A stretch of DNA of 64,000 nt. It comes from Emticicia aquatica. GTDB lineage: Bacteria > Bacteroidota > Bacteroidia > Cytophagales > Spirosomataceae. The position numbers were made by a program, and so were the translations under genes. The notes beneath the pieces are model-generated. The model had not been told where the DNA came from. It saw nothing but the letters and a program-made list of their open reading frames with translations, and ran no database searches. Positions within the stretch are counted from its first letter, which is position 1. Each line of letters starts with the position of its first letter. Below, one piece after another: positions 41,888 through 45,061 of the stretch. The stretch spans positions 1,384,001-1,448,000 of the forward strand of contig NZ_CAKLPY010000001.1 in assembly GCF_923079645.1 (NCBI RefSeq), written 5' to 3'.

Positions 41888-43126
41888 CTAAGTAGAAAGC
41901 CACTGCATCATTAGCCCCGTTAAATAACCACAATATGTGCCTATTGCGTTTCCGAGAATCGCTAATAACACACCAATTGGAGCCAAGGAAGGGTTAAAAG
42001 CAGCCGCCACAACTGAGGCTGAAGCAACACCTCCAACATTGGCTTGTGAACCAACCGCTGTAAAGAAAAATGGTGCTTTTACGAGATAGGAAGCAATTAT
42101 TGTAAAAATTGCATGAGTAAGAATCCAAATCAAACCAACTAAAAACAACATCGGATTTTTAAACGCTTCGAAAATATGTAGCTGCATACCAATCGTTGCA
42201 ATTAGAAAATATAAAAATAACGTTCCGATTTTTGAGCCACCAAATTTTTCAAGACTACGCACTTTCGTATTTGAAAGTATAAAACCCGATAACGAAGCAA
42301 CTGTTACAATCCAAAAAGATTTTGATGCCAAACTATAAGCTTTCAAATTTGGATAATTGCTTTCAATATATGGAGCTACATTATCTGCCACCAAATGTGA
42401 TAAACCAGTAATACCAAAACCGACTGCTAATAATAAAAACAACTCTTGAAAAGAAGGATTTTTTTGTTTTCCAGTTTCAAATTCGACTCTATCTTGAATT
42501 GCTTTAATAACGCTTGCATCAGCTTTCATTTTTTTATCAATAATGGCGGCCTTTCCAACAAAATAAAGTAATAAACCTAGCCAAAGTTCAGCAAAAAGTA
42601 CATCTATAACACTTGTTTGAGCAAAAACTGCTGGTGAAGGTTGAAATATTTCTTTTAAAGCTAATTGGTTGGCATTTCCTCCAGTCCAACTTCCTGCAAT
42701 TGTTGCCAATCCACGCCATATTTCTTCTCCATTTTGTCCTAAAAAACTAGGGTCAATCAATTTACCAATCCAAATCCCTAGCGGGCCACCAACCATCACA
42801 CCTAATGCTCCAGCAAAAAAAACAAAAAGTGCTTTTCCACCCAATTGCTTAATTGATTGAATATCAATGCTTAATGTAAAAAAAACGAGACAGGTTGGTA
42901 GAAAATATCGAGAAGCTGTTTCATCCAATTGAGAATCTGCCGCAGAAATAATATTAAAAGAGCTTAATAATCCAGGAATAAAAAAACAGAGTAGAATGGA
43001 AGGAACTATTTTATAAAATTTTTCAAATGATTTGAGTGATGTAGAATAAAAAATCAGAGCTAATGTAGCCATCAAAATACCTAAAACTACGGCATCATTT
43101 GTAAAAAAAGCGGTTTCGGGAGTCAT
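41888..43126 (-). CDS. DUF819 family integral membrane protein
   Basis: A 412-residue inner-membrane protein with about ten hydrophobic helices. Family signatures are the paired segments TIAGSWTGGNANQLA (about residue 145) and AVGSQANVGGVASASVVAAAF (about residue 365), which resemble the inverted-repeat substrate sites of secondary transporters. The substrate is unknown; relatives are called YjcL-like. ATG 43126 is chosen over a TTG 9 nt upstream. It lies downstream of two minus-strand terminators that should isolate it from the RNA gene at 43366. Confidence 0.86.
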   Translation of the reverse strand: MTPETAFFTNDAVVLGILMATLALIFYSTSLKSFEKFYKIVPSILLCFFIPGLLSSFNIISAADSQLDETASRYFLPTCLVFFTLSIDIQSIKQLGGKALFVFFAGALGVMVGGPLGIWIGKLIDPSFLGQNGEEIWRGLATIAGSWTGGNANQLALKEIFQPSPAVFAQTSVIDVLFAELWLGLLLYFVGKAAIIDKKMKADASVIKAIQDRVEFETGKQKNPSFQELFLLLAVGFGITGLSHLVADNVAPYIESNYPNLKAYSLASKSFWIVTVASLSGFILSNTKVRSLEKFGGSKIGTLFLYFLIATIGMQLHIFEAFKNPMLFLVGLIWILTHAIFTIIASYLVKAPFFFTAVGSQANVGGVASASVVAAAFNPSLAPIGVLLAILGNAIGTYCGYLTGLMMQWLST

Positions 43127-43211
43127 TATTTGCAATTAGAATTTGTATAGATTACAAAGTAAAGAATTCTGAAGAGCAAACAAAATTTAACGTAAATATT
43201 AGACAAAAAAA

Positions 43212-43241
43212 ACACGCAAACCTCAATTTGGGATTGCGTGT
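43212..43241 (-). terminator. Second terminator of the minus-strand RNA unit
   Basis: Stem ACACGCAA/TTGCGTGT (43212-43219 with 43234-43241) with an inner CC/GG pair, followed on the minus strand by a run of eight T (complement of 43205-43212). Confidence 0.7.
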
Positions 43242-43303
43242 CGCAATTACACTTCATCAACAAACTAAAAACCAAATAATATTTTTACTAAGCAAAAATA
43301 CTC

Positions 43304-43353
43304 AAAAAAAAAGTATGAAAGAAATTTATTAAGTAAAATATTCTTTCACACTT
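43304..43353 (-). terminator. First terminator of the minus-strand RNA unit
   Basis: A 13-bp stem (43311-43323 with 43341-43353, one G-U pair) followed on the minus strand by nine T (complement of 43304-43312). It begins 13 nt beyond the end of the tRNA-like structure. Confidence 0.8.
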
Positions 43354-43365
43354 TTAAATTGTATG

Positions 43366-43526
43366 CTGTAAGAGGGGGAGTCGAACCGCCCACGGTGTAG
43401 TTAGCCACAGTACAAATTTGGTGGTCAATCCCAGTCGACTAGAAAAGTCCGGCATTATGCTGCGTTTATCCTATATTCACCACCCCCGAGACAGGAGGGC
43501 ATGGCTGCCAATTTCATCACCTTACA
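43366..43526 (-). ncRNA. tRNA-like RNA with anticodon GUC and a 92-nt insertion at the variable arm
   Basis: Read on the minus strand, the ends pair as a 7-bp acceptor stem (43520-43526 with 43367-43373) followed by G at the discriminator place (43366); CCA is not encoded. Positions 8-9 are TG, and the D-arm has a 3-bp stem and an 11-nt loop with GG (43501-43517), as in class II tRNAs. The anticodon arm (43483-43499) has 5 bp, U33 and anticodon GUC. The T-loop is TTCGACT (43379-43385) on a 5-bp stem with a C-C mismatch. Between the anticodon and T arms lie 92 nt (43391-43482) instead of 4-24. They form an 8-bp helix with one mismatch (43475-43482 with 43422-43429) and two small hairpins. GC is far above the surroundings. 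Whether it is charged, spliced or a mimic is unknown. Confidence 0.6.
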
Positions 43527-43584
43527 ATGAGAATCAAAACAAAAAATTAAATTGTTGAACTGTCCTTCTCTTATTTTGATGCTA

Positions 43585-43617
43585 CAAAGTTAATACAAAA
43601 AACATATACATTGCAAA
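43585..43617 (-). promoter_or_regulatory. Promoter of the tRNA-like RNA
   Basis: On the minus strand TTTG (43614-43617), 21 nt and TAACTTTG (43585-43592) match the Bacteroidota -33/-7 consensus. Transcription would start near 43578, giving about a 50-nt leader before the tRNA-like fold. Confidence 0.65.
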
Positions 43618-43619
43618 TA

Positions 43620-43687
43620 TTTCATAAAAAATTAATAATATTTACATATTTCATAATTTATGTGTATATTTATTATTATTTTCATAA
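43620..43687 (+). promoter_or_regulatory. Three TTTCATAA repeats upstream of the Lrp/AsnC gene
   Basis: TTTCATAA occurs at 43620-43627, 43649-43656 and 43680-43687, all in the same orientation, with 29- and 31-bp periods (about three helical turns). This suits an Lrp-type multimer that wraps DNA. The first copy borders the promoter of the tRNA-like RNA. Auto-regulation is inference. Confidence 0.5.
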
Positions 43688-43702
43688 TATTACACATTTA
43701 AA

Positions 43703-44167
43703 ATGGAGAAAAATTTAGAAATTGATAAAACCGATTTGAAAATTTTATCATTGCTCATGCAAGATGCGAAAATGCCATATACAGCAATTGGCGAAAAAAT
43801 CTTTGTTTCGGGAGGAACGGTTCACGTCAGAATGAATAAAATGGAAGAAATGGGCGTTGTTAAAGGTTCACAACTTATTATTGACCCCATAAAACTTGGC
43901 TGGGATATTAGTGCTTTTTTAGGGATTTACCTTGATAAAAGTGAATTGTATGATACAGTTGCAGACCAATTGGAAGGAATTCCAGAAGTTGTAAGTATAA
44001 ACTATACAACGGGACAATATAGTATTTTTGTCAAAATCGTTTGCCGAGATACGCAACACCTACGAGAAGTACTTCATGATAAAATTCAAAAAGTTGGTGG
44101 TATTCAAAGGACAGAAACATTCATTTCGCTCGAAGAAAGATTTAATAGACCAATACCACTGATTTAG
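43703..44167 (+). CDS. Lrp/AsnC family transcriptional regulator
   Basis: A 154-residue DNA-binding protein with an N-terminal winged helix (DLKILSLLMQDAKMPYTAIG, GGTVHVRMNKMEEMGVV) and a C-terminal RAM/AsnC ligand domain (DQLEGIPEVVSINYTTGQYSIFVKI). It acts as an oligomer that usually senses amino acids. It is divergent from the tRNA-like RNA, with three regularly spaced repeats between. The ligand is unknown; the closest named type may be AsnC. The convergent DUF5694 gene follows after 30 nt without an obvious hairpin. Confidence 0.92.
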   Translation: MEKNLEIDKTDLKILSLLMQDAKMPYTAIGEKIFVSGGTVHVRMNKMEEMGVVKGSQLIIDPIKLGWDISAFLGIYLDKSELYDTVADQLEGIPEVVSINYTTGQYSIFVKIVCRDTQHLREVLHDKIQKVGGIQRTETFISLEERFNRPIPLI

Positions 44168-44197: not shown

Positions 44198-45061
44198 CTA
44201 TTTTTCCAAAATTGTTTTAATATCTACCACCTCAAAATATGGATGAGTTTTAATCATATCTTTCAAGATTTGTACATGGCCTCCACCAATGATAACTAAT
44301 AATTTTCGGTCATAAGGACTTACACTTGTAAGAATATTCTGCAATATTTTGGTATTTCTGAAATACTCTTTGGAAGTAAATTCAGCACCAAAACCGTTGG
44401 TGTTAGTATCCATCCAGCCAGTAATATTGAAATAATGCAAAGTGGAAATACTTTGCTCAGAATTTAAGTTTATTAAATGTTCTTTAAAAGGTAGTTTTTT
44501 CCAGTTTTCATAATTTGCTAAATATGTTTTGAAAGCTCTATTTACACTTGGATTTTTTGCAAAATAATCATCATAAGATGGTCGTTTTCGTTCTAATTCA
44601 TGTGAAAAGAATGTCAAAAGCGTATCTATTTTATTTCGTGCAATACGCATTCCTATATTCAAATCTGGTTGAACATAGTTTACGCAAGTTACACCATTAG
44701 GATTATTTATTTTCTTGGCTAACTTTATTCCAATCTGAAAAATTTCATTGAATTCACTACTTTTTTCTTTTGGTTTAAAGCCATTCAAATAATTTTTATA
44801 AACATTGTTCCAATATGGTTGAGTATCAGGTGTATTTTCTACAAAAATTTTATCAGGCTTAAATTTTGCTAAGGCATCAACTACTTCTTGAACTTGATTT
44901 TGACGTTCAGCAGAAAGTAAATCATCAAAACCCCCTTTAACATAATCTGGCGTTTCACCCATGTGAAACACGCCCAAAAATGCTATTTGTACCCTCCCAC
45001 TCTGTCCGAATGAAAGGAAAACATAAAAGAAGAAAATAACTGTAAGAGAAACTTTTTTCAT
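44198..45061 (-). CDS. Secreted DUF5694 protein (TraB/ChaN-like fold suspected)
   Basis: A 287-residue exported protein (signal about 1-19). The motif IAFLGVFHMGETPD near the mature N-terminus and LLVIIGGGHVQILKDMIKTH near the C-terminus match the family pattern (a G-x-F-H strand and a late G-G-G-H). A FVENTPD segment adds an acidic residue. These His/Glu residues recall the metal-type active site of TraB/TIKI and erythromycin-esterase-like proteins, but no activity has been shown that I know of. It lies 80 nt after sufB, beyond a terminator. Confidence 0.78.
   Translation of the reverse strand: MKKVSLTVIFFFYVFLSFGQSGRVQIAFLGVFHMGETPDYVKGGFDDLLSAERQNQVQEVVDALAKFKPDKIFVENTPDTQPYWNNVYKNYLNGFKPKEKSSEFNEIFQIGIKLAKKINNPNGVTCVNYVQPDLNIGMRIARNKIDTLLTFFSHELERKRPSYDDYFAKNPSVNRAFKTYLANYENWKKLPFKEHLINLNSEQSISTLHYFNITGWMDTNTNGFGAEFTSKEYFRNTKILQNILTSVSPYDRKLLVIIGGGHVQILKDMIKTHPYFEVVDIKTILEK

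Follow-up and report, generated by a model that had tools for sequence, protein, structure and literature searches.

What does an RNA do that is built from the parts of a tRNA, bears an aspartate-type anticodon loop and holds 92 extra nucleotides in its variable region? Such an RNA lies on the minus strand at 43366–43526 of the window (the whole stretch of DNA analysed, 64,000 nucleotides in length), where an earlier note had proposed it from the letters alone. The core of that proposal, an Asp-type tRNA-like RNA, has held and the RNA is real; the accompanying suggestions of a split or intron-bearing tRNA and of a mismatched T stem have not.

A class II tRNA-like RNA and its variable arm

Working along the 161 nt of the RNA, we find every element of a class II tRNA, including each of those that had been named for it: the acceptor stem (TGTAAGG/TCTTACA), U8, G18G19, the TTCGACT T loop and G73 (Table 1). 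The D stem is of 3 bp (ATG/CAT), and the anticodon arm (CCCTC-CTGTCTC-GGGGG) presents a GUC anticodon followed by U37 and C38. In the T stem, a bulged C (GGG-C-GG/CCCCC) is a better reading than the supposed C-C mismatch; most relatives have a plain 5-bp stem. Relatives from the window's own family carry a bulge there, of C or T or, in L033 and L040, of two bases.

The extra nucleotides are themselves real, but what had been taken for an insertion is an extended class II variable arm. From its base upwards this consists of a 4-bp stem (GGTG/CACC), a 3-bp stem (TAG/CTA), a conserved internal loop (GATAAA/GCTAA in the window, GATAAA/CTAA across the family), a further stem (CGCAG/CTGTG) and an apical part that ranges from a small hairpin to a 90-nt domain, as in the window RNA; the covarying arm is kept in RNAs of every length, from 108 to 199 nt. 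A split or intron-bearing tRNA does not fit with such an arm, nor with the presence of two ordinary tRNA-Asp(GUC) genes in the genome. The class II tRNA-Leu(GAG) of the same genome shares a long variable arm and a similar D arm (GGTGATGAAATTGGCAGCCATGC in the RNA, GGTGGTGAAATTGGTAGACACGC in tRNA-Leu); the RNA differs from it in having G73 instead of A73, an Asp-type loop and a much longer arm.

Table 1. Features of the locus, as positions in the window except for the last row
Feature	Position	Strand	Details and basis
tRNA-like RNA, positions 1 to 73	43366..43526	-	sequence, BLAST, covariation
Acceptor stem, 5' strand	43520..43526	-	TGTAAGG; U1, G2, U3 near-invariant in family
D arm	43501..43517	-	ATGAAATTGGCAGCCAT; Leu-type D loop, G18G19 then C-A
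Anticodon arm	43483..43499	-	loop CTGTCTC (GUC, U37, C38) at 43488-43494
Variable arm, 5' side	43460..43481	-	GGTG, bulge, TAG, GATAAA (43465-43470), CGCAG
Variable arm, apical part	43411..43459	-	hairpin and conserved TGACCAC; long type, lacking in short types
Variable arm, 3' side	43394..43410	-	CTGTG, GCTAA (43401-43405), CTA, CACC
T arm	43374..43393	-	TTCGACT loop, bulged C; GT (U48) just before
Acceptor stem, 3' strand, and discriminator	43366..43373	-	TCTTACA and G73; encoded C74 next
Predicted -7 promoter element	43585..43592	-	TAACTTTG, TAnnTTTG type; aligned in relatives
Predicted -33 element	43611..43617	-	TTTGCAA; predicted from sequence
Probable terminator	43304..43353	-	hairpin and T run; seen in sequence
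AsnC/Lrp-type regulator	43703..44167	+	divergent from RNA; co-occurs with RNA across phylum
gatB::aspS fusion loci	L296 3754-7059 (-); L297 2953-6270 (+); L298/L299		three RNA-less relatives

Support for this structure comes only from comparison, since the minimum-energy fold of the single sequence gave none (z = +1.5; 190 of 200 shuffled sequences fold as well). In 79 sequences aligned with MAFFT, on which 28 pairs were drawn by hand, pairing stands at 98.0% in the cloverleaf and variable-arm stems, double changes occur in 16 of the 28 pairs and covariation is 0.391, against 0.186 shuffled and 0.105–0.118 slid. For 131 distinct sequences fitted to a covariance model, an alignment biased towards the structure, 98.4% of cells pair, 19 of the 28 pairs show double changes and covariation reaches 0.427 (0.191 shuffled, 0.096–0.119 slid). 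The paired positions, on whose conservation in relatives the earlier note had staked its reading, are therefore conserved, and because the stems of the variable arm covary, decay and interruption of the gene are both ruled out. An RNAalifold consensus of 23 long-type sequences supports the acceptor, variable-arm and T stems, and draws the D and anticodon region differently.

Standard tools pass the RNA by: ARAGORN called no tRNA in the window, the RNA is not among the 34 RF00005 matches of the genome, and an Rfam search of 43100–43800 at E ≤ 10 gave no match named tRNA. The Y RNA (YrlA) and intron readings once considered for the RNA gained no match from it. The tmRNA model (RF00023) reached 6.6 bits over 11 positions against a cut-off of 47. 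Like tmRNA, the RNA joins a tRNA-like domain to an extra domain but, unlike it, has an anticodon arm; a tmRNA identity was rejected, the genome having a separate tmRNA gene (114 bits).

Distribution and invariant bases

Homologues of the RNA were found by BLAST (E ≤ 1.2e-9) in 42 of 58 genomes, and the RNA thus recurs beyond chance. A pattern scan of named genomes returned at least 119 stretches, and all 80 titles among the matches listed are of Bacteroidota; the matches listed include Cytophagales (Dyadobacter, Spirosoma, Runella, Algoriphagus, Cyclobacterium and Flammeovirga among them), Saprospiraceae, Chitinophagales and a few labelled Flavobacteriales. BLAST against plasmids (with the window copy) and against phages (with a different copy, L048) gave no match, and we found no paper on such an RNA among open-licence full texts. 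We extracted 191 copies, 170 of them distinct, copies without findable ends and copies with N being excluded before counts were made. With the covariance model, copies scoring at least 85 bits are present in 40 of the 395 genomes of a phylum sample, the best eight candidates per genome having been scored; we set this cut-off within the empty interval from 88.8 down to 69.9 bits, and matches at or below the latter are 82–87 nt long, the length of ordinary class II tRNAs. These counts, like the structure, the invariant bases and the gene co-occurrences given below, were computed directly: this is a conserved, structured and new RNA family, absent from Rfam 15. Even should the mechanism proposed below be wrong, a family of this size missing from Rfam 15 is an annotation gap for the phylum.

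The determinants given for bacterial AspRS are G73, G10, G34, U35, C36 and C38, with G1-C72 strictly conserved in bacterial tRNAAsp (PMC9976931). U35, C36, C38 and G73 are invariant among the 131 distinct copies, the Asp identity set being complete at these bases; G34 is kept in 124 (otherwise A in four, C in two and U in one), and G2-C71, U3, A70 and A72 are again found in 131/131. The GUC, C38, G73 and G2-C71 that had been singled out as Asp identity elements are, then, near or fully invariant. Two members of the set are lacking: position 10 is A in 92 copies, U in 34 and G in just 5, and the pair 1-72 is U-A in 130 of the 131. In place of the G1-C72 of tRNAAsp, the first pair is thus the GatCAB signal, U1-A72 being reported to direct amidation of Asp-tRNAAsn (PMC9976931; see also PMC4206432), and G1-C72 and U20a of tRNAAsp to block it (PMC9976931). 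U20a is itself missing from the RNA, which has C-A after G18G19 in 130/131 copies.

The body of the tRNA is equally well kept. U8, G9, A14, A15, U48 and the T-loop sequence TTCGA occur in all 131 copies, so that the elbow is retained along with the tertiary contacts of a tRNA (U8, A14, G18G19, TTCGA), and C74 is encoded in 190 of the 190 copies for which a following base is available; the bases beyond it vary, and tRNAs of the same genome follow this pattern too. The anticodon loop is less uniform. A decoding tRNA-Asp would have U33 and a purine at 37; here U33 is found in 117 copies and lost in 14, and base 37 is T in 127 (including the window RNA, where a U at this position had already been remarked upon), C in two and G in two, never A. 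Set against the invariant U35, C36, C38 and G73, this variation at 33 and 37 indicates a loop that keeps the bases read by AspRS and loosens the needs of decoding; judged by these positions, the RNA is probably not a decoding tRNA.

Genes that accompany the RNA

The RNA and the divergent regulator gene are flanked by genes for a DUF819 membrane protein (41888–43135, minus strand) and a DUF5694 protein (44198–45061, minus strand). The regulator has a PF01037 domain and an AsnC-type HTH; its best sequence match in the PDB is E. coli AsnC (2cg4, E = 1.3e-31), and it scores 157 bits against an AsnC equivalog cut-off of 227. Orthologs (E ≤ 1e-45) occur in 44 of the 395 genomes, namely in 40/40 of those with the RNA and 4/355 of those without (Fisher p 1e-50, phylogeny being left out of account). 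In a second set, 34 genomes in size, the ortholog is found in 19 of 20 RNA-positive and 1 of 13 RNA-negative genomes, with G046 left out of the table and G048 scored RNA-positive from two contig-end pieces of less than 85 bits. Leaving aside 14 loci with under 400 bp upstream, the gene is divergent and 122–281 bp away in 95 of 143 loci; other neighbours vary between clades. In the Algoriphagus-like G131 and G166 it is the RNA that has relocated, AsnC staying, by eye, beside SUF-operon-like genes.

The association has its exceptions. AsnC occurs without the RNA in five genomes (G046, G059, G177, G413 and G050); three of these (G059, G177 and G413) have no RNA of at least 85 bits, none seen next to AsnC, and no GatB match. 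Two genomes hold altered copies: G046 (L234/L254), which has AsnC, encodes a reduced form of 76 nt with the tRNA core kept and the variable arm lost, and G040 (L277/L289), the only RNA-positive genome of the second set without an AsnC ortholog, has a decayed RNA in which the GATAAA/CTAA loop of the arm is gone. The latter hints that arm and AsnC go together; G046 points the opposite way.

E. coli AsnC is described as an activator of asnA (asparagine synthetase) that is damped by asparagine, and members of its family as often regulating a divergent neighbour (PMC8707732). The present arrangement resembles the E. coli asnC-asnA pair in that an AsnC-type gene diverges from a gene here proposed to make asparagine, and differs in that the partner is an RNA gene and not an enzyme. 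About 60–90 nt upstream of the RNA we read from the sequence a predicted Bacteroidota-type promoter (TAnnTTTG/TTTGCAA). In looking for an AsnC operator upstream of the RNA, we retained 50 AsnC-linked and 48 unlinked promoters, near-duplicates and copies without a TAnnTTTG box being dropped. An A at -50, in an A+T-rich region, is found in 50/50 linked, 46/48 unlinked and 14/23 tRNA promoters of the window genome, and T[ACG]TAAA near -50 in 48%, 54% and 4%, respectively; this shared -50 region may be a UP element, and in linked loci it overlaps the AsnC promoter.

At class level or nearer (98 genomes, counted by hand from the covariance-model listing), GatB (TIGR00133) is present in 37/37 RNA-positive and 4/61 RNA-negative genomes, phylogeny being ignored here as in every co-occurrence count. 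The four are G046, with its decayed RNA, G098, G209 and G257, the GatB scores of the last two being lower, like those of a fused form described below. Outside the class, GatB is found in 273 of 297 genomes and the RNA in three (f66 genomes), all with GatB, so that this search, on GatB, finds it wherever the RNA occurs among the 395 (40 genomes). In a closer set, of 24, GatB is present in 14/14 genomes with the RNA and 8/10 without (five unfused): GatB is expected where the RNA is, not the reverse.

Other routes to asparagine were also surveyed. AsnA is absent from 23 of the 24 genomes tested (present in 1/14 RNA-positive, 0/10 RNA-negative). The window genome has GatB, no asnA match and no TIGR01536 match at E ≤ 1e-60. 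Our prediction that RNA-positive genomes lack AsnB failed in general: AsnB-like genes (TIGR01536, E ≤ 1e-60, best three candidates scored, paralogues pooled) occur in 35 of the 40, and at class level in 32/37 RNA-positive against 57/61 RNA-negative genomes. Most carriers of the RNA may therefore have another route to asparagine, and in these the RNA may provide a second or conditional route, or be regulatory, or a scaffold. The ordinary tRNA-Asn of the window genome also carries U1-A72 and could thus itself be a substrate of GatCAB.

A conserved element of 27 nt, GGTTTTTAGTTTGTTGATGAAGTGTAA, lies just downstream of the RNA (43205–43273 of the window, minus strand), and behind it come a hairpin and a T run. 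The element has no Rfam match, is found with at most three mismatches in 36 of 56 genomes (34 of the 35 of the window's family), including genomes without the RNA, and is possibly a second small RNA or a leader. In three members of the window's family (G024, G029 and G031) both the RNA and the AsnC ortholog are missing and the element is kept. Directly upstream of it, G029 and G031 have a gatC-gatA-gatB::aspS operon, the parts of which are found on two contig ends in G024; the fused GatB::AspRS protein is of 1101–1105 aa in G031 and G029 (GatB ~12–475, AspRS ~513–1100, by NCBIfam). A DUF819-like gene comes next, as in the window, in G029 and G024 and not in G031 (by eye). The fused operon probably represents one evolutionary event.

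A possible carrier for asparagine synthesis

Taken together, the conserved bases and gene partners suggest that the RNA carries aspartate during its conversion to asparagine. We consider it somewhat probable (roughly 0.55) that it is a dedicated, AsnC-controlled, non-decoding carrier on which AspRS and GatCAB synthesise asparagine, and we infer expression, processing, charging, amidation, asparagine release, AsnC control and the role of the variable arm as follows. The RNA would have a promoter of its own, controlled by the divergent AsnC-type regulator, and its transcript would be trimmed and given CCA as a tRNA is. AspRS would place aspartate on it by way of G73 and the GUC...C38 anticodon loop, and GatCAB, reading U1-A72, would amidate Asp-RNA to Asn-RNA. 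With its altered anticodon loop and its large variable arm, the RNA would stay off the ribosome, so that asparagine would not be placed at Asp codons, and deacylation of Asn-RNA would yield asparagine. The variable arm may hold AspRS and GatCAB together, or may exclude EF-Tu and the ribosome.

Against a carrier speak the lack of G10 and of G1-C72, the AsnB-like genes of most carriers, the failure of GatB to track the RNA in the closer set, the five genomes with AsnC and no RNA, the decayed RNA of G040 without AsnC, and the armless form of G046. The candidate carrier has in common with tRNA-dependent asparagine synthesis (AspRS with GatCAB, in a transamidosome) the AspRS-type anticodon loop, G73, U1-A72 and the presence of GatB in all RNA-positive genomes tested; it departs from it in that the carrier known there is the decoding tRNA-Asn (GUU), and a non-discriminating AspRS is stated to be required (PMC4206432). 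Unlike tRNA-Asn, the candidate has an Asp loop (GUC), a class II body, a variable arm of 30–120 nt and a regulator gene of its own. Bacillus cereus tRNAOther and the peptidoglycan tRNA-Gly likewise use a tRNA fold outside translation, in a different phylum and with a different anticodon. tRNAOther has no comparable variable-arm domain, the tRNA-Gly is not known to have one, and no link between pseudo- or non-decoding tRNAs and AsnC or GatCAB is known.

More tentatively, at a little short of even odds, we would put forward the wider picture of a dedicated RNA cofactor for the synthesis of a free amino acid, in which an asparagine-responsive regulator controls, in place of an enzyme, a tRNA-derived RNA where AspRS and GatCAB make asparagine, with the variable arm as a docking domain, and in which some relatives have replaced the RNA by a GatB-AspRS fusion.

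Chief among the alternatives, although we judge it unlikely, is that the RNA is a regulator or sensor: a tRNA mimic under AsnC control that binds AspRS or AsnC and reports or buffers the supply of Asp or Asn, and is not a biosynthetic intermediate. The near-perfect co-occurrence with a regulator gene and the large variable-arm domain with its conserved internal loop would suit such a role, and regulatory pseudo-tRNAs exist, such as tRNAOther of B. cereus, described as poorly aminoacylated and not on polysomes (PMC3399842). In calling the RNA possibly a new regulatory RNA, the earlier note was right in direction, in that the RNA forms a new family and a regulator gene co-occurs with it; a purely regulatory role leaves unexplained, however, why U1-A72 replaces G1-C72, why GatB is distributed as it is at class level, and what the gatB::aspS locus signifies.

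Rather less likely again is a transamidosome scaffold, the RNA holding AspRS and GatCAB together and ordinary tRNA-Asn being the substrate amidated. The recognition elements of both proteins are present, the window genome's tRNA-Asn has the U1-A72 pair, the RNA's loss is accompanied by a physical fusion of GatB to AspRS, and complexes of AspRS, tRNA and AdT are on record (PMC9976931). A pure scaffold would need no intact acceptor end, yet U1-A72, G2-C71, U3-A70 and G73 stand at 130/131 or above and C74 at 190/190. We think it very unlikely that the RNA donates an aminoacyl group outside the ribosome, in the modification of a lipid, the cell wall or a peptide: peptidoglycan synthesis does employ non-decoding tRNAs (PMC3399842), but no transferase gene consistently adjoins the RNA, its neighbours other than AsnC differing by clade. 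Least credible of all, despite the cloverleaf and GUC anticodon, is that the RNA is a normal tRNA-Asp that decodes and has an unusual variable arm, or that its gene is decayed, split or interrupted by an intron, given the two ordinary tRNA-Asp(GUC) genes already in the genome, the loss of U33 in 14/131, a base 37 that is never A, a G34 changed in seven copies, and variable-arm stems that covary.

Should the carrier reading prove true, an RNA gene would do the job that is left to asparagine synthetase in other bacteria, and central metabolism would include, as a permanent component, a non-decoding descendant of tRNA under a regulator of its own. How tRNA identity elements came to be reused outside translation would then be open to test, as would the reasons for which many Bacteroidota retain GatCAB and the function of large variable-arm domains.

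The RNA also occurs in tandem. More than one copy is found in 30 of 157 loci (L099, L227, L228, L034 and L035 among them), with three copies each in L227 and L228 and five, about 197 bp apart, in L099 of Flammeovirga pacifica.
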